Below, piece by piece: positions 2,958 to 24,417 of a stretch of DNA of 25,198 nucleotides. Within the stretch, counting starts at the first letter, position 1, and each line of letters starts with the position of its first letter. Source of the stretch: a virus. The notes beneath the pieces are model-generated. The model was not told the DNA's origin and ran no database searches. It saw nothing but the letters and a program-made list of their open reading frames with translations. The stretch spans positions 1-25,198 of the IMG/VR virus record IMGVR_UViG_3300004806_000091; one strand, given 5' to 3'. A program made the position numbers and the translations under genes.

Positions 2958-3654
2958 CTGTACCTTTCTTATCAGTATTAATTTCTATTATGTTAGTGAC
3001 GTCTTTTTCTGTCTTCTTGTTTTGTATTGTGCTGATCATTATGTTTAATTTGGTCAATTGACTCAAATTTTCTGCTGTTGATTCAGCATTTAACATTTTT
3101 GCAGGTGTTAATAAGCCAATACTGTTAACATCTTTGGCCATTTGCATGAAACCTTTGCTGACTTCATTCATTAAAAACAGTTTTTTCTCCAAAAGTTTGT
3201 CACGCTTTGGTTTATTTTTGACATTTCCATGATCATCTTTGTCTAATTCATCATCTGGCACATCATCAGGGTCTTCTGGTAGCAAACTGATCTTTTGTGC
3301 AAGGCTAATGTATTGATTACTTAGATGCTGTGTAACTGTATCAACAGTATTAATAATACGTTCATCCAGTATTTTAACTTTGTTAAGTCTGCGTTCATTT
3401 TGTGCGGTAGTTAACAAGTTGTTACTATTGAGACGTAACTGTTCCCATCCATTTTCTTGTGCATGTTTTACCAAATGTGTCGGTTGTATGTGTAATTCAC
3501 GTGCAACATCCACAAGGCTTGGTTTCCTTGGGTCATTCATAAAAATACCAAATGCACGGCTGTACAGATCCTGACGTGACTCAGTTGGTCGCTTCTGATT
3601 CTTGACCATCTCCGTTGGAGTCTGTGTCGGTTCTGTTGTCTTTGTTTCGTCCAT
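2947..3654 (-). CDS. Putative terminase small subunit (HTH)
   Basis: About 235 residues from the ATG at 3654; a GTG at 3675 would add seven residues and an ATG at 3609 would remove fifteen. The N-terminal 25 residues are Thr/Lys/Pro-rich and disordered-looking. There follows a helix-turn-helix of the kind used by small terminases (PSLVDVARELHIQPTHLVKH), and then long Lys/Glu-rich helices likely to oligomerise. The segment DPDDVPDDELDKDD is strongly acidic. The position two genes upstream of terL in the same operon, plus the HTH, supports DNA recognition for packaging. The start overlaps the 3' end of the preceding gene by about 74 bases; both overlapping segments are low-complexity, which fits a tolerated overlap. 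Without a profile search the small-terminase assignment remains probable, not certain. Confidence 0.7.
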   Translation of the reverse strand: MDETKTTEPTQTPTEMVKNQKRPTESRQDLYSRAFGIFMNDPRKPSLVDVARELHIQPTHLVKHAQENGWEQLRLNSNNLLTTAQNERRLNKVKILDERIINTVDTVTQHLSNQYISLAQKISLLPEDPDDVPDDELDKDDHGNVKNKPKRDKLLEKKLFLMNEVSKGFMQMAKDVNSIGLLTPAKMLNAESTAENLSQLTKLNIMISTIQNKKTEKDVTNIIEINTDKKGTDGE

Positions 3655-4375
3655 TGTAGTAATCTTTGCTGTCACAGACAGCTTTTAAAGTTTGTAAAGC
3701 CCAGTCAAGCACATTATTATGTGATTGCTTAGCTACCCATTCAAATTGTTTCAATCTTTCACGTGACACTGTTAACTTGAGCGTCATTGGTTGACCAAAA
3801 TCTAAGTACTCAGCATACTTATCTTGCAAACGTTGAAAGTGGTAACGTGCATACACCTTGGTAACATTATGCTTTTTACATGCATCGATAATTGTTAAGC
3901 CTTTTTGTATGTCCTCATACACTGGTATTAGTAACCTACCATGTGTCTCACGCCATTTTTTAAGTTTCTTGTTTTTGATTACTGACGGCTTTTTTAGTTG
4001 CACACGTCTTTCAACATAACTGCGAACTGCTTTGTATTTTCTGCCGACACGATTTGTTTTTGGATCAATACCAAATTCTTTAAGTATCCTGCTTATGGTT
4101 TTTTTGGATGATTGTGATTTTGTTACAATTTCATTGATGCTCATTGAATGATTCATATAATCATCATACACATCATATGCATCCATGGAACAGTTACCAA
4201 ATGGTCTATTAATAACACTAACATCACGTTGCTTGAAACCATGTTTCTTGGCTACATGTCTTACAGTGTTGTATGGAACATTTACTTCATTTGCTATCTG
4301 TACCAATGACAGCTTTTGTCCCAATCGTGATACAATTTCATTTATTGTTATAGCATCATGTTTCATGTGACCCAT
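3581..4375 (-). CDS. Multi-HTH DNA-binding protein
   Basis: First gene of the leftward packaging operon, 264 residues. At least two helix-turn-helix units are readable: LSLVQIANEVNVPYNTVRHV at about 19-38 and SINEIVTKSQSSKKTISRIL at about 76-95. A third helical repeat around ITIIDACKKHNVTKVYARYHF is possible. The middle is very Lys/Arg-rich and the C-terminus ends in an acidic, Asn/Asp/Ser-rich tail. Repeated small HTHs suggest a site-specific DNA-binding protein, either a regulator or a packaging recognition factor. A strong sigma70-like promoter (4382-4409) sits so close that transcription could begin at or next to this ATG; an in-frame ATG three codons later (4366) is an alternative start. 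It could itself be the small terminase, with the next gene as an accessory. Confidence 0.72.
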   Translation of the reverse strand: MGHMKHDAITINEIVSRLGQKLSLVQIANEVNVPYNTVRHVAKKHGFKQRDVSVINRPFGNCSMDAYDVYDDYMNHSMSINEIVTKSQSSKKTISRILKEFGIDPKTNRVGRKYKAVRSYVERRVQLKKPSVIKNKKLKKWRETHGRLLIPVYEDIQKGLTIIDACKKHNVTKVYARYHFQRLQDKYAEYLDFGQPMTLKLTVSRERLKQFEWVAKQSHNNVLDWALQTLKAVCDSKDYYNGRNKDNRTDTDSNGDGQESEATN

Positions 4376-4472: not shown

Positions 4473-4829
4473 ATGAGCGTTATGTATAATGCTCACTATA
4501 TTGAATCAATCAATAATGCACTCAATTTGCTCGAACGACATGCAAGCAAAATCATCAGGGATGATGAAGCAACAAAGAAAAAAATTAACTACGTTGAATT
4601 TAGGGACGCAGTTAACAAAGCCAAGGAACAAGGCTTAATAAAGGTAACACAAGTGAGGCCTGGTCAAAAGGTCAGGGTGCCACGTGCCGAGTTCAAACTA
4701 TGTCACGATTTGTGGGAGAAGAACCTCTCACGTGACGAAATAGCACGCATCACGGGCTTTACTAAAAGCACCGTGGCGTCTCGTGTCAGCAGATATAAAA
4801 AGTATCTGCGTACTCTTAGTTATCAATAA
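4473..4829 (+). CDS. HTH DNA-binding protein
   Basis: A 118-residue basic protein transcribed divergently from the packaging operon. The N-terminal half looks like a winged-helix-like or helical domain (KKINYVEFRDAVNKAKEQG followed by a short beta-like segment IKVTQVRPGQKVRVPRAEF). The C-terminal half has a clear helix-turn-helix (LSRDEIARITGFTKSTVASR) followed by a basic helix. The divergent arrangement with 97 bases of AT-rich spacer suggests it regulates itself and the operon to its left; that is inference. AGGG lies just upstream of the ATG. An in-frame ATG three codons later is possible. Its last codons overlap the end of the convergent His-rich gene by seven bases. Confidence 0.75.
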   Translation: MSVMYNAHYIESINNALNLLERHASKIIRDDEATKKKINYVEFRDAVNKAKEQGLIKVTQVRPGQKVRVPRAEFKLCHDLWEKNLSRDEIARITGFTKSTVASRVSRYKKYLRTLSYQ

Positions 4830-5062
4830 TGATAACCGTAACCATCAGCATGCTTGTGTGATGCTGTGTGCGTGTGGTCCATCTTACCCATGCGCACATG
4901 TTTTAGTGCTGGGTTAGCTTTCTTGGCTGCAGGGGATGCGTGACGGGTTGCACTAGCAAGGATTGCCTGTGCACGGTGCATTGGGATGCCTTGACGATGG
5001 GCAATGCCTTCAGCTGCTGCGTGGAACCCTGGGTGACTGTGATGCATGTGTGCGTGTTTCAT
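4823..5062 (-). CDS. His-rich small phage protein (HPGF...ASPAAKKANP family)
   Basis: 79 residues from the ATG at 5062; longer (5104) and shorter (5047) starts exist. The core HPGFHAAAEGIAHRQGIP, then AILASATRHASPAAKKANP, is the signature of a very widespread small phage protein whose function is not known. What is odd here is composition: 15 of 79 residues are His, placed where relatives usually have Lys or Arg, together with an HTHTASHKH tail. This could bind metal ions or act as a pH-dependent nucleic-acid binder; both are inference. It is a single leftward gene between two rightward genes, with no visible promoter. Confidence 0.75.
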   Translation of the reverse strand: MKHAHMHHSHPGFHAAAEGIAHRQGIPMHRAQAILASATRHASPAAKKANPALKHVRMGKMDHTHTASHKHADGYGYHY

Positions 5063-5630: not shown

Positions 5631-6094
5631 TTTTCCATCATCACATGATACATTTGCCACAATAGCACGCAATACACTGCGCCATAACCATGGTTAGCAG
5701 TGCATACATTGCTTATTATATTTGCCATTGTTACCCTGACACGTAATTAACAACAAATAAAATAAACACATGTACCATTTTACGATACACACGATAATGG
5801 TACACAATATGTATCATATGGGATACACTGGGTACAGGCATGGGGCGGTGTGGCAGGGGGTGGGGGCTACCATGGTATACCCATGTGCCAGATAATCGAT
5901 TATGAGGCCATCCCTGTGCCCCAAATGGGGCATGCTACCAAGGTGTTTATCAAGCTATGTTAATTGTTGGGTTTAGTTCTGTTGCAGGTTCTCCCTGCAC
6001 ACTATTCCTTGGTACCATGTACAATATGATTAATGAACACAGATACCTGTACAGGATGCTGTACATGTGTCAAGCATCATATTGTGGTGGGGGG

Positions 6095-6118
6095 ATGAGT
6101 CATTGAGTCAATGAGTCA
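6095..6118 (+). repeat. Three tandem 8-bp WTGAGTCA repeats
   Basis: Copies atgagtca, ttgagtca, atgagtca follow each other without spacing. They are iteron-like and lie just left of two short perfect inverted repeats. Confidence 0.75.
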
Positions 6119-6221
6119 TGTGTATCATGTGGCATGTGTCATGCCGTAACGCTATGCGTTATAACATGACTACGTCATGCCTAATAATTGATACAAAAGT
6201 TACGTTTGAATAGAGAGTATA

Positions 6222-6277
6222 GGGGTGGGGTGGTGGCCTGTGGGGGTCGGGTGGTGGCATAGGGGCAGGGGGTGGGT
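6222..6277 (+). other. G-rich block with quadruplex potential
   Basis: Seven runs of three or more G occur in 56 bases on the plus strand, separated mostly by one to five bases (one gap of about ten, interrupted by GG pairs), with almost no C. This stands out in an AT-rich genome and is compatible with G-quadruplex formation on the plus strand. A smaller similar block lies at 5842-5868. Confidence 0.6.
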
Positions 6278-6389
6278 CACAGCGTAGGCACTGCAAGCAG
6301 TGCAACGCAGTGAAGCATGCTTCAACGGCAGTTGATTCAATGGTTCAATGATTCATTTGCTTTGCTTTGGTTCGCTTGATTCATGGCAC

Positions 6390-6418
6390 AAAAAAACCCA
6401 CTCAGTTAAGAGTGGGTT
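6390..6418 (-). terminator. Rho-independent terminator
   Basis: On the minus strand a perfect 9-bp stem AACCCACTC / GAGTGGGTT with a 6-base loop is followed by a run of seven T. It directly follows the 29-residue membrane peptide ORF (stop at 6437), which is the only minus-strand candidate it could serve. Confidence 0.85.
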
Positions 6419-6436
6419 CAGTGTGTGTAGTGTTAC

Positions 6437-6526
6437 TTAGCAACCATAGTACAGTATGTAAGCAAACGCGAAACAGACTGCTAAGAATAGAAATAGATCA
6501 AACAATACTTTAGATAGTTTTTTCAT
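6437..6526 (-). CDS. 29-residue membrane peptide
   Basis: A short ORF reading MKKLSKVLFDLFLFLAVCFA and ending FAYILYYGC before a TAA stop. It has two or three N-terminal lysines and then one continuous hydrophobic helix with aromatic residues at the end, so a single-pass inner-membrane peptide is likely. AGG lies four bases before the ATG and the start context is TCTTATG, as for several other genes here. A strong terminator begins 19 bases after the stop, which makes a one-gene transcription unit and is the main argument that it is real. A TATAAT-like box lies upstream on the minus strand, without a good -35. Function is unknown; small toxins, superinfection-exclusion peptides and lysis regulators have this form. 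Confidence 0.6.
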   Translation of the reverse strand: MKKLSKVLFDLFLFLAVCFAFAYILYYGC

Positions 6527-6666
6527 AAGACCTATAAGCTAGTACCTTACTTGTTACCATGCAAGCTTATTTTATTATAAATAAATAATGTTGCATGATG
6601 TGGTCACATATTATCTACTAGCCATGTTACAAGGTGCAATGATGCACCAAGTAACATTCTTATGTT

Positions 6667-7254: not shown

Positions 7255-7281
7255 AACCCTGCCTAACAAGCAGGGTTTTTT
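7255..7281 (+). terminator. Rho-independent terminator
   Basis: An 8-bp stem AACCCTGC / GCAGGGTT with a 7-base loop is followed by T residues to 7281. It ends the two-gene unit 6667-7235. Confidence 0.88.
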
Positions 7282-7482
7282 CATGCCCTCATGCTTCACT
7301 CTCGCGTGCACGCATGAGCCACAAATGAACAATGCCACACTACTTGTGACGGCAATGTGGCATGTTCTTATGAATGACAATATACAATGAATCAGGAAAC
7401 CATGTAACTGACTCAATGCAATGTTAGTGTGTGCCACATCATCATAGCAAGAACCAAATGAGAAAAACGGATTGAGATTGCA

Positions 7483-7605
7483 TTGGATTCGATTGGATTG
7501 GTGAATCAATTGGATTGGATTGGATTGGATTCGCATTCGATTCGCATTGTAGCGGATTGGTGCAATTGGATTCGATTGGAACAATTCGCATTGGATCATA
7601 TTGGA
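7483..7605 (+). repeat. ATTGG repeat array 1
   Basis: Twelve ATTGG pentamers in about 120 bases, all on the plus strand, many as direct GATTGG or (ATTGG)4 runs with interspersed GATTCG/CATTCG variants. The region is non-coding: the open frames across it exist only because the repeat contains no stop in several frames. The stretch 7282-7482 before it shows no gene. Confidence 0.85.
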
Positions 7606-7697
7606 TCATTAGAGATTCTTATAAGGTATATTAGCATTACTTTATTATAATTTAGTGCTTGAATCATGTAAACAATTGTTTCATGCTACAGGTTCTT

Positions 7698-8408
7698 ATG
7701 AATGATAATCAAAAAACAATCGGATACATTATTCACGAAGGTGTCACTAATGGTCACAACTTCGTTTGCGTTGCTACACTAGAGACAAGCAACCCTAAAA
7801 CGGGTAACATGATTCAAGTATGGTTTCTATTAAAGGATATCAATCCAGTGGAAGCATTGAAACTTGGTTTAGATGCGGAAACAATTTGCAAGGATTGTCC
7901 CTTTGCTAATGGTCAAGGTTGCTACGTTGTGATCCACCAAGCGCCTTTGCAAGTATGGAAAAAGTATCATGAGGGAAGGTATCAAAAACTTGATCCAAAG
8001 GATTATGCTAAGGTGTTCCGTTTTCGTAAGGTTCGCTTTGGCGCTTATGGTAACCCAAGTTTGTTGCCTATTAGCATTGTCAAATCAATTGCCAAGGTGT
8101 GTCAAGGTTGGACGGGTTACTTCCACGATTGGAAGACTAATCCACTAGCAAACGAGTATTCAAAATACTTTATGGCATCGACCGAAACTTTATCTAGTTA
8201 CAAGCTAGCAAAGTCACTAGCTTATAGAGTGTTCCACGTTTCCCCAAACAAGCCAGAGGGATCAAGGGAATGCGCCAATTCATCACATAACCTAACATGT
8301 GAAAATTGCAACCTATGTGACGGCGGTAATGGACGTGACGTTTGGATCAATCCGCATGGATCATTTGGTAAGGATAAGAAAGCAATTGCCGTAGCACTTT
8401 CCGCTTAA
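7698..8408 (+). CDS. DUF7227-like Cys-cluster protein
   Basis: 236 residues from the ATG at 7698, which has AGG five bases upstream and the TTCTTATG context; a TTG at 7659 is less likely. The landmarks are KTGNMIQVWFL near the N-terminus, then CKDCPFANGQGCYV, QAPLQVWKKYHEGRY, VRFGAYGNPSLLP, WTGYFHDW, and a C-terminal Cys group (ECANSSHNLTCENCNLCDGG). These are shared by a family found in phages and plasmids that I recognise as DUF7227-like. The ordered Cys pairs point to a metal site (zinc or Fe-S). No enzymatic activity is known to me. It is the first gene of a three-gene unit ending at the terminator 8899-8927. A TATAATTTAGT box lies at 7646-7656. Confidence 0.8.
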   Translation: MNDNQKTIGYIIHEGVTNGHNFVCVATLETSNPKTGNMIQVWFLLKDINPVEALKLGLDAETICKDCPFANGQGCYVVIHQAPLQVWKKYHEGRYQKLDPKDYAKVFRFRKVRFGAYGNPSLLPISIVKSIAKVCQGWTGYFHDWKTNPLANEYSKYFMASTETLSSYKLAKSLAYRVFHVSPNKPEGSRECANSSHNLTCENCNLCDGGNGRDVWINPHGSFGKDKKAIAVALSA

Positions 8409-8427
8409 ACAACTAACAACTAATAAC

Positions 8428-8670
8428 ATGAAAATAGAATATGGTATATTGAGTATTGAAAATCTGTATCAAATTAAAACAGTAGATGAGGCTTTAAACT
8501 ACATTGAAAGTTTAAAAGATTTATACGATAGGCAACGAGCGTACGATTATTTAAAAGACGTAAACATCTATTTTAAAATTAATGGTGCCAGCATTAACGA
8601 TACTTCAGGAGAGTTTGAAAGATTTAACAAAACGTATTTACAAATTAACAACAATTATAAAAAACACTAA
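8428..8670 (+). CDS. Hypothetical protein, 80 residues
   Basis: A small charged protein (KIEYGILSIENLYQIKTVDE, then helical). No family recognised; no Cys pairs, no membrane segment. Helix-rich composition with Asn/Lys/Ile bias. Codon and base use is noticeably more A-rich than in neighbours. It starts at TAACATG and its own stop is joined to the next gene by the same TAACATG arrangement, which supports it being translated. Confidence 0.68.
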   Translation: MKIEYGILSIENLYQIKTVDEALNYIESLKDLYDRQRAYDYLKDVNIYFKINGASINDTSGEFERFNKTYLQINNNYKKH

Positions 8671-8671
8671 C

Positions 8672-8875
8672 ATGAATAATACACTTAAAAAATACATTGT
8701 AAGAACTGTTTACTCGTTTACATTAGATCAGGAAGTCGAGGCAAATAACGAGAACGAGGCCGAGGACATTGCACTAAACCTGAACAAACAAGTTGATAGC
8801 AATGGTTTGCTTGACGCATTGTCGCAAGGTTGGAACCTTGAGGCTAGCTACATTGACGAATTAATAGAACCATAA
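8672..8875 (+). CDS. Hypothetical protein, 67 residues
   Basis: Starts one base after the stop of the previous gene (TAAcATG). Reads MNNTLKKYIVRTVYSFTLDQ followed by an acidic helix EVEANNENEAEDIALNLNKQ. The pattern of a beta strand pair, a helix of the E-A-N-x2-E-A-E-x-A type and a final acidic segment is typical of small phage proteins that modify or bind an enzyme, but no function is known. A longer frame from 8582 would overlap the previous gene by 89 bases and is rejected. A terminator follows 23 bases after the stop. Confidence 0.7.
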   Translation: MNNTLKKYIVRTVYSFTLDQEVEANNENEAEDIALNLNKQVDSNGLLDALSQGWNLEASYIDELIEP

Positions 8876-8898
8876 CACTTGGCACATTCGTCACACAG

Positions 8899-8927
8899 GG
8901 ACACACTCGCAAGGTGTGTCCTTTTTT
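8899..8927 (+). terminator. Rho-independent terminator
   Basis: An 8-bp stem GGACACAC / GTGTGTCC with a 7-base loop is followed by six T. It ends the unit 7698-8875. Confidence 0.9.
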
Positions 8928-8983
8928 GTGCCCACATGCTACTGGCACATTCTCGCACGCACGCTCGCACCCACGCACGACCC

Positions 8984-9290
8984 ATTGGCTCATTGGTTCT
9001 TATTGAATTGGTTTGATTCATTGGTTCATTTGGTTATTGGTGACAATGGTGACAATGTATCCTTAGTATCAAGTCTCAGTCTCACATGTATCCCATGGTA
9101 TGAGATTGATACTATTGCAAATTGGCATTGGTAATGCCACATTGCATGGATTGGGATTGCCACATGGATTGGATACGAATTGGATTGGCCAATTCGATTG
9201 GTTCAATGGGCATTGGGATTGGTTCACATTGGCACATTGGATTGGGATTGGCATTGGATTGGCACAATGGTTCACATTGGTGCATTGGCA
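8984..9290 (+). repeat. ATTGG repeat array 2
   Basis: Five ATTGG at about 8984-9045, then seventeen ATTGG in about 165 bases (9121-9287), again all on the plus strand and often as GATTGG, CATTGG or CACATTGG. Several overlapping frames are open on both strands only because of the repeat. It is the same motif and polarity as array 1; the two arrays bracket the unit 7698-8875. Confidence 0.85.
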
Positions 9291-9309
9291 CATTGTACCA
9301 TGTACCATG

Positions 9310-9610
9310 ATTCACTAGTGCATTTCGGTTCAGGGTTAGTTGCATGGGCACAACTCACCCATAACAGGTGAGTGTGCATCACTAATGCAAATCGGACTAG
9401 GAAGCCTGATGAACACCTACATGCATATGGGGCGGTATTGGCTCAATTGACCCTGCATGTAGCGACTCACAAACCCCTAACGGGTTTCGCCATGAATTAA
9501 GCCACTTGGTCTAACAGATTGGTCAAGGTGGCACCGCTACTATTATCAAGACCGTTACACCTTGCACAGGTGGTTGGATCAGTTTGTGCATCTGTTTAGG
9601 GTAGATACAG
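9310..9610. other. Hairpin-rich non-coding region, possible structured RNA
   Basis: No gene is supported. Stem pairs seen: CTCACC/GGTGAG (9354-9372); CTACATGCA/TGCATGTAG (9417-9462) with an inner GGG/CCC; AAACCC/GGGTTT (9471-9487); GCCAC/GTGGC (9501-9532); GTAGCG/CGCTAC (9459-9540), which could close a multibranch around the previous two; and TCTGT/ACAGA (9591-9611). Density of complementary blocks in 300 bases suggests an RNA element, on either strand. It does not match tRNA, tmRNA, RNase P or a group I intron as far as I can read. Confidence 0.4.
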
Positions 9611-9642
9611 AAAACCCCACAAGAGGTGCCGTCCTGTGGGGT
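9611..9642 (-). terminator. Probable terminator of the leftward small-gene operon
   Basis: On the minus strand an 8-bp stem ACCCCACA / TGTGGGGT with a 13-base loop, whose last pair begins the run of four T. It is the first hairpin met by transcripts from the 14591-9811 operon. The T run is short, so read-through is possible. Confidence 0.55.
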
Positions 9643-15158: not shown

Positions 15159-15341
15159 ATGCTAAAAACAAAACTAGGTCGCCCACGTTTGGGCAAAGGA
15201 TTAAGAAAGATTCTCTCGTGTTCTGTAGATCCAGTAACACTTGAATATATTGAGAAACATGTACCAGAAAGTTACAAACGAACTGGTTATGTAATTGATG
15301 AAATGGTAAACAAACTTAAAGAACATAAAATTAAATTATAA
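15159..15341 (+). CDS. Putative ribbon-helix-helix DNA-binding protein
   Basis: 60 residues, basic. KILSCSVDPVTLEYIEKHVP and RTGYVIDEMVNKLKEHK have the strand, helix, turn, helix layout of CopG/Arc-type (RHH) repressors; the N-terminus (LGRPRLGKGLRK) is a basic arm. An RHH dimer would bind operator DNA, for example its own operon. The start is two bases after the previous stop. Assignment by pattern only. Confidence 0.6.
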   Translation: MLKTKLGRPRLGKGLRKILSCSVDPVTLEYIEKHVPESYKRTGYVIDEMVNKLKEHKIKL

Positions 15342-23409: not shown

Positions 23410-24417
23410 TTAAGACAAAGAATATCCTGCTGCTGCAAGATTATATCTAAATGTTGCAACAACATTTGCTGTCTGAGTAAAAACACCTGTATTACTTACA
23501 GTAGTACTTATATTATTATTTCCACTAGCAACAGTGCCAAAAGCTATCATTGCTTTATCTACTCCATATGAACAAGCAGAAGCAGCAGTTATATTTGTAC
23601 CTGTAACATTAGTGTTAGATGCAAGAATACCGACATTGCTAATTAAATTTATGTAGGTAGTATAACTACCAGTGCTATTACCACCATAAACAACAAAAGC
23701 TTTATCTAAACTATAAGTAGCAGCAGATGGTGAATTTCTTGCAGTTCCTATACCTGAAACATCTGATGCAACTACTCCAGTATTACTAACCAAATTAGTT
23801 ATAGTTGTTACACTTGACCCAGTTGTAGTAGTTTGTCCAAAAAGAAAAATAGCTTTATCAAATCCATATCCAGTTGCAGTTAATAATTCTCTAGCAGTAC
23901 CAACACCTGCAGTATCACCTGCGACAACCCCAGTATTGCTAACTAAGTTGGTTAATGAATACATAGTGCTTGAAGTATCATTACCGTAACCAAAAATAGC
24001 TTTATCAATACCATATCCTGCTGCTGCAAGTCTTTTTCTAATAGTACCGACACCAGTTGTATCTGATGCAACAACACCAGTATTACTAACTAAATTAGAT
24101 ATAGATACTGTAGTAGTACTATTACCATAAGCAAATATAGCTCTATCTGTACCATAAGATGCAGCAGCTAATGCTGCTCTAGCAGTTCCTACACCAGCAG
24201 TATCTGTCGCTATTACACCACTATTACTAAGAAGATTTGTAATATTTTGCACTGTGCCATTAGTACCAAATCCAAATATACCTTTTTGTGTTTTTTTATT
24301 GTACCAAAAAGAAAAAGGCATAGATCCAAAATTGGCATTAACTTTATCGGTTAATAAACTATAACCTAAAAAAGCTAATGCTGATTTAATTATAAAATCT
24401 TTACGATTATATTTCAT
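23410..24417 (-). CDS. Tail-fibre/receptor protein with six propeller-like repeats
   Basis: 335 residues. After an N-terminal segment (about 43 residues, with hydrophobic FIIKSALAFLGYSLL) come six tandem repeats of about 47-51 residues. The consensus is DKAIFGYG, then a variable Thr/Ser loop, then TNLVSNTGVVASDT, GVGTAR, and LAAAGYG. Repeats 1-4 are the most alike; 5 and 6 have diverged (loss of GTAR and Asp). This is a kelch/beta-propeller-like repeat known from phage tail fibres and adhesins, so binding to the host surface is the likely role. The loops between DKAIFGYG and NL differ in length and sequence, as receptor-contact loops would. It lies four bases downstream of the fibre gene to its right. 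Confidence 0.82.
   Translation of the reverse strand: MKYNRKDFIIKSALAFLGYSLLTDKVNANFGSMPFSFWYNKKTQKGIFGFGTNGTVQNITNLLSNSGVIATDTAGVGTARAALAAASYGTDRAIFAYGNSTTTVSISNLVSNTGVVASDTTGVGTIRKRLAAAGYGIDKAIFGYGNDTSSTMYSLTNLVSNTGVVAGDTAGVGTARELLTATGYGFDKAIFLFGQTTTTGSSVTTITNLVSNTGVVASDVSGIGTARNSPSAATYSLDKAFVVYGGNSTGSYTTYINLISNVGILASNTNVTGTNITAASACSYGVDKAMIAFGTVASGNNNISTTVSNTGVFTQTANVVATFRYNLAAAGYSLS

Follow-up and report, generated by a model that had tools for sequence, protein, structure and literature searches.

Clusters of a short ATTGG word around a GP88-superfamily phage operon as candidate half-sites for a DNA-binding protein

Two dense arrays of the word ATTGG flank an operon headed by a gene of the GP88 superfamily in a 25.2 kb phage record, analysed here over its full length (the window), whose genes are arranged in alternating blocks. 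The place, the word and its strand are conserved in the clade of the window, and comparable layouts built from other words recur around GP88-superfamily genes in other phage groups. Here it is proposed that the arrays are clusters of half-sites for a DNA-binding protein controlling or insulating the operon, a reading given a probability of about 0.45 from sequence comparisons. Among the functions raised in a preliminary description of this DNA, binding sites for a regulator or initiator are the best-supported possibility, as word, strand and place are kept, dyads are present and the layout occurs with other words. A cluster of half-sites is favoured because the word is kept although the surrounding non-coding DNA has lost detectable similarity, because other words are laid out in the same way around GP88-superfamily genes, and because the sites lie in spacers bounded by terminators and promoters.

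Arrays and operon in the window

An exact search confirmed the two arrays of the preliminary description, with 12 and 22 plus-strand copies of ATTGG on the two sides of positions 7698-8875 (Table 1). All copies had been described as lying on the plus strand, which holds for 34 of the 35; the single minus-strand copy (9189-9193), within array 2, pairs as a dyad with the copy at 9184. The irregular spacing was also borne out, with start-to-start steps of 5-32 bp in array 1 and of 5-23 bp, plus one gap of 85, in array 2. The commonest steps are 5 and 6 bp, followed by irregular steps up to about 30, and a step analysis of both arrays found no helical period or 10.5-bp phase. The wider consensus is GGATTGG, and the most frequent variants are ATTGA, ATTGC and ATTCG.

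Table 1. Positions of the arrays and neighbouring features in the window and in two related records
Feature	Record	Position	Strand	Basis or remark
Intrinsic-terminator-like site preceding array 1, tail TTTTTTCATGCCC	Window	7255-7277	+	
Array 1, 12 ATTGG (plus ATTCG/ATTGA variants), direct repeats	Window	7482-7604	+	Exact search
AT-rich leader from array 1 to start codon	Window	7605-7697	+	Identical in three sister phages
GP88-superfamily gene (phrog_2554, DUF7227-like, Cys cluster)	Window	7698-8408	+	Profile match
80-aa gene	Window	8428-8670	+	98% identical in L083
67-aa gene, also open from an earlier start	Window	8672-8875	+	Different in sister phages
Intrinsic-terminator-like site closing the operon, tail TTTTTTGTGCCC, then array 2	Window	8897-8923	+	
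Array 2, 22 plus-strand ATTGG and one minus copy	Window	8984-9288	+	Exact search
ATTGGCCAAT dyad within array 2	Window	9184-9193		Simulation-tested
Conserved non-coding block adjoining array 2	Window	9290-9600		About 99% identical, three sister records
Terminator-like site opposing array 2 from the far side	Window	9614-9642	-	
60-aa ribbon-helix-helix-like protein, candidate binder	Window	15159-15341	+	Fold by inspection
Arrays around GP88 gene	G007 (L280)	2532-2604, 3817-3885		
Further array	G007 (L280)	5901-6031		
Further array, preceding DUF932 gene	G003 (reverse complement of L279)	3222-3390		
Arrays around GP88 gene	G003 (reverse complement of L279)	4906-4970, 6395-6531		

The density is far from random, as had been stated. 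ATTGG ranks first in clustering among all 1024 5-mers of the window, and Markov-1 simulations of the window reached at most 4 copies per 125 bp and 5 per 305 bp. The word is not equally dense elsewhere, with 98 copies per kb in array 1 and 72 in array 2. The rest of the window has 1.1 per kb on the plus and 1.9 on the minus strand, so that the arrays are about 50 times denser. Low-complexity DNA is common in the spacers of the window, and a non-coding stretch of about 1 kb (5640-6660) contains G-rich runs and short repeats (TGAGTCAT, TGATTCAA) without an ATTGG array.

The polarity (34 of 35 sites on one strand) together with the irregular spacing is consistent with a polar, spacing-tolerant signal, recognised on single strands by RecBCD/AddAB, a recombinase or a primase in the manner of Chi, or folding on its G-rich strand into a two-tier G-quadruplex. 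Chi words described to date are short and specific to the host. In some lambdoid phages, Chi is concentrated between the origin and the packaging site (PMC3784561), and the arrays resemble such regions in being short polar words concentrated in one region. They differ from them in having dyads, in bracketing one gene family and in the absence of a plus-strand bias outside the arrays (28 plus and about 48 minus copies). Such a signal also offers no reason for the bracketing of GP88-type genes, and it is considered very unlikely.

Gene calls were based on open reading frames and homology. The first gene of the operon, at 7698, had been described as DUF7227-like; it matches the phrog_2554 profile (E 1.4e-47), but does not belong to Pfam DUF7227 at the cut-off. 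It has no Pfam match, either to PF23872 DUF7227 (cut-off 27 bits, searched at E 0.01) or to PF17338 GP88 (cut-off 24.4 bits). Its relatives in L015 and L049 match PF23872 below the cut-off, and the genes found in its place in L083, G003 and G007 exceed the cut-off for PF17338.

Array 1 has a terminator on one side and the leader of the GP88-type gene, a probable promoter region judging from its sequence, on the other. Array 2 lies 3' of the terminator of the operon, in the spacer separating convergent genes. The array spacers are thus post-terminator, pre-promoter or between convergent terminators, and are probably untranscribed. In the proposed mechanism, array 1 would serve as an extended operator beside the promoter, with a matching cluster at the end of the operon. 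Against an operator function, no plus-strand promoter is obvious beyond array 2, and the irregular spacing without a helical period is unlike most cooperative operators.

Direct repeats beside AT-rich DNA (7605-7690) are also a feature of plasmid and phage iterons, and an initiator could bind the repeats and open the AT-rich stretch after array 1 for replication or maintenance. This is considered quite unlikely: the spacing in the window is irregular and without a 10.5-bp phase, there are two or three separate arrays 1.3-3 kb apart instead of one, and no initiator gene was recognised in the window, where the phage encodes a primase-helicase (phrog_239). The replication skew suggested as a check did not help this reading either, with no clear switch and no signal singling out the arrays.

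A coding origin of the arrays was rejected, the open frames that cross them on both strands being of low complexity. A position at fixed genome ends was also rejected, as the records of relatives break at different places. In T7, short-repeat regions with dense, imperfect short direct repeats lie just inside the genome ends; the arrays are similar in their dense, imperfect short direct repeats, but those of T7 are terminal, whereas here the relatives break at different places as if circularly permuted. The conserved block next to array 2 (9290-9600) may be an RNA with a regulatory role or an additional binding region. Structured RNA in it was rejected, its folding being no better than that of shuffles (z -0.77 and -0.55), and tRNA, tmRNA and Rfam searches of the window gave no match.

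Two other sequence features were observed around the operon. The leader and start TTCTTATGAATGA.AAT occurs twice (7364-7385 and 7690-7710), once on each side of array 1, and the copy upstream of the array resembles the relic of a gene start. A terminator T-tract followed by (C/G)(A/G)TGCCC, sometimes TCATGC, is found at 7277-7290, 8923-8935 and 6394-6380 of the window and in L015, L049, L076 and L013. This shared box seemed enriched: TGCC within 9 nt past a terminator was counted in 14 of 54 cases in DUF7227-like loci against 1 of 14 in random contigs, and in 7 of 59 and 8 of 93 after terminators in two other sets.

Conservation in related phages

Three further records contain the region (L083, L253 and L084, with primases 95-99% identical where present). 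The comparison with close relatives that had been proposed showed both arrays in place in L083 and L253, and array 2 in L084 as far as its record reaches. ATTGG counts are nearly constant, at 12, 11 and 12 in array 1 and 24, 27 and 23 in the array 2 region, while indels of 5 to 48 bp, mostly inside the arrays, alter the layouts between sisters and seem to exchange whole units. In L083 and L253 the phrog_2554 gene is replaced by a different gene matching PF17338 GP88 (E 5e-26), and the junction of the swap is the start codon; the middle 80-aa gene is kept in the sisters and the third small gene differs.

In the array 2 block, L253 has 6 substitutions in 579 positions against 33 in 1300 of neighbouring coding DNA (P 0.035) and L084 has 5 in 580 against 27 in 1300 (P 0.08), two comparisons that are non-independent and to which local recombination could contribute.

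More distant members of the clade were compared by scanning complete records for triplets of closely spaced ATTGG, with the same motif read backwards as control. Matches, on a single strand, numbered 20 in the window, 22 in G001, 13 in G002, 14 in G003, 21 in G007 and 2 in G008, and the control gave 0 in all these records except for 9 in G003. The sister records, of 58-61 kb, contain no other ATTGG clusters. Primase identity to the window is 72% in G003, 69% in G007 and 67% in G008, and the conserved non-coding block of the window has no DNA match in these three. The breakpoints of G001 and G002 indicate circularly permuted genomes; if so, the arrays of G003 and G007, which are on the strand of the primase gene, lie 6-10 kb before it. 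The gene flanked by arrays in both records is a GP88 gene by its match to PF17338 (E about 1e-48). Inspection of G003 showed a promoter close to the consensus, TTGACG-N17-TTATAA, after the array preceding this gene.

The orientation of the sites follows transcription in the window, G003 and G007. G008 has its phrog_2554 DUF7227-like gene on the opposite, minus strand, where the sites beside the gene are inverted dyads, GATTG-NN-CAATC, six in number with three per side. An inverted pair ATTGG N0-1 CCAAT is also present once each in array 2 of the window, the G003 arrays and the G007 arrays, with 3 observed against 0.45 expected and 19 of 2000 simulations reaching 3. Since the half-site persists in differing arrangements, a dimer recognising double-stranded DNA is a better explanation than a strand signal. 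The inverted dyads of G008 weaken the pairing-strand or other strand signal of the preliminary description, and they count against a Chi-like action in one orientation, which predicts no inverted pairs.

It had also been suggested that the arrays are a slippage-expanded satellite. As a mode of mutation this agrees with the unit-like indels, but on its own it fails to explain the retention of the word. In a fully neutral account, slippage and unequal recombination would multiply words in unselected spacers, and the bracketing would mirror the positions of spacers. The concentration of unit-like indels within the arrays and the common low-complexity DNA of the window's spacers are in line with it. 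The account is nevertheless thought somewhat unlikely, as ATTGG/GATTGG is kept in clade members without detectable similarity in the flanking non-coding DNA, dyads are present and the array 2 block has fewer substitutions than nearby coding DNA. Under the half-site reading, copy number would likewise be altered by slippage or unequal recombination, and the word would be held by selection. Satellites can homogenise, and the clade is represented by four divergent lineages only, both of which weigh against the operator reading; in addition, metagenome assembly of repeats can misstate copy numbers. If the neutral account is true, the arrays document an unusual satellite process with a positional focus, acting in phage spacers.

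Other words around GP88/DUF7227-type genes

Genes of the GP88 and DUF7227 types are widespread in phages (147 and 265 records), and to our knowledge no function is known for them. Protein searches gave 80 DUF7227-like and 80 GP88-like loci. No ATTGG arrays were found in the 80 DUF7227-like loci, many of which have arrays of other short words; ATTGG was therefore rejected as a universal word and is clade-specific. A search of the phage collection at DNA level gave no match. Among other viral records with (ATTGG)4, 4 of 24 have GP88 against 0 of 23 random records, and in 2 of those 4 an array is within about 1.1 kb of the GP88 gene.

Of 52 independent DUF7227-like loci, 10 have a repeat-rich stretch (score at least 35) in the first kilobase downstream of the gene; for kilobase bins located 2-5 kb downstream the figure was 2 of 119 (P about 1e-4). 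Arrays (score at least 25) follow 10 of the 29 terminators situated no more than 1.2 kb from the DUF7227-like gene, 3 of the 121 terminators at other places in those loci and none of the 79 from random viral contigs, a small control of 220 kb. The absence of arrays at terminators of random contigs, and their rarity at terminators distant from the gene, argue against the neutral account.

For bracketing, a density-based test, which requires same-strand clusters of one word on either side of the gene, replaced a looser statistic that 288 of 315 random pairs passed. Eight of 86 loci passed, and none of the 740 control placements did (P about 1e-8; with the loci collapsed to five groups, about 9e-6). 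The passing loci include those of the window clade, a GP88 group with the word CGCAAG, with 3-4 copies before and 6-8 after the gene in clusters on the plus strand only, and L205, with 12 CAAGCNN heptads before and 15 after the gene; words such as the latter have no G tracts, which disagrees with the Chi-like and G-quadruplex readings. The other 78 of the 86 GP88/DUF7227 loci do not pass, and 10 of the 12 cultured phages checked near the gene have no strong array, which also counts against the operator reading.

The two cultured exceptions are Ruegeria phage RpAliso, which grows on R. pomeroyi DSS-3, and Pelagibacter phage Hroenn. RpAliso has two arrays after its DUF7227-like gene, between RPALISO_228 and RPALISO_227, including six GTCAA(AAC) direct repeats (L299 3796-3912) between this gene and the next and just before the latter. 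In Hroenn a CCAGG/GGCAAC array occupies the spacer that precedes the GP88 gene. The 21-22 bp steps of RpAliso, equal to two helical turns, are iteron-like. Initiator sites vary in word by lineage, as the words of these arrays do, and both points are in keeping with an origin.

Long regular words were found in L019 (GTGGATCCGCGGTCC), L041 (GGCAGCACCGCGACC) and L049 (GAGGGTAATCCA); other words are short and irregular. The near-identical contigs L018 (6340-6610), L019 (6340-6720) and L021 (6340-6551) do not have the same number of GTGGATCCGCGGTCC units following the terminator (about 11 versus 18), which reflects active expansion or contraction, or else assembly collapse. This difference, seen between L018 and L019, and the wide variation of words and unit lengths across lineages (5 to about 25 bp) are as expected for a neutral satellite.

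A wider proposal is that in several unrelated phage groups the GP88-superfamily gene and its lineage-specific arrays form one functional unit, the word co-evolving with a phage-specific binder; this is regarded as unlikely. If true, the cassette could act under regulation in early host takeover or in defence, or be a place at which GP88-type genes are exchanged, and the array word and its binder would co-evolve much as immunity specificities do. A repeat layout with a lineage-specific word would give a handle on the regulation of GP88/DUF7227-type genes, would supply a natural series of operator words matchable to phage regulators, and may explain the exchange of different family members at one site. 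The layout was not found described in the open-access literature searched, which is no proof of novelty.

Candidate binders and known repeat systems

The half-site proposed here would have the core GGATTGG, with a minimal form ATTGG/GATTG, and would be read by a sequence-specific double-strand DNA-binding protein, most simply phage-encoded, that loads along the arrays. The preliminary description named the product of a bracketed gene as a possible binder. This is unlikely, because sister phages carry another gene at this place yet retain the word, and because neither gene type gave an AlphaFold model with a significant match in the PDB; as a DNA-binding initiator the bracketed protein was rejected. 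The weak PDB matches of the models are to TIM-barrel enzymes and to radical-SAM enzymes such as viperin and RlmN. A 60-aa protein with a ribbon-helix-helix-like fold is a putative candidate (Table 1), being kept in the clade at 43-48%. It has no Pfam or PHROGs match and no structure match in support, and L088/L089 encode it too, with no ATTGG arrays in their partial records (G009, G004). The window also encodes an HTH protein (4473-4829).

Ribbon-helix-helix repressors bind tandem half-site operators, such as omega heptads and met boxes, in direct or inverted arrangement near promoters. The layout described here is similar in its arrays of short half-sites and in the small ribbon-helix-helix-like protein kept by the clade, and the 7-bp step of L205 (CAAGCNN) is like that of the heptads. 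It differs in the window by the 5-bp core, the irregular steps of 5-30 bp, the up to 22 copies and the presence on both sides of the operon; a fixed heptad-type step of 7-8 bp is absent from the window clade, the 7-bp step occurring only in L205.

The stoperators of L5-type mycobacteriophages are asymmetric, mostly in one orientation and located in intergenic and promoter regions, with more than twenty 13-bp sites spread genome-wide and following transcription (PMC9283540). The arrays share with them asymmetric words, mostly in one orientation, in intergenic and promoter spacers, and GP88 genes are also common in mycobacteriophages; unlike stoperators, the words are of 5-7 bp in dense clusters, and G008 has inverted dyads. 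The tandem direct repeats of Borgs are intergenic, element-specific, perfect and nearly all unique to each site (PMC9605863). The arrays are likewise intergenic with element-specific sequences, but consist of imperfect words common to two or three sites and to distant relatives.

As to the host, a search with the primase gave a single remote match in a genome collection, 34% identical, in a Desulfobacteraceae MAG. Repeats were also observed within coding sequence. Alanine-rich coding repeats (SAAWSAAE-like) occur in small phage proteins near the region in L014 (8890-9110) and L089 (1980-2300), and the window has a tandem repeat with a 141-bp unit (23889-24230) within a minus-strand reading frame that probably encodes a tail or surface protein.
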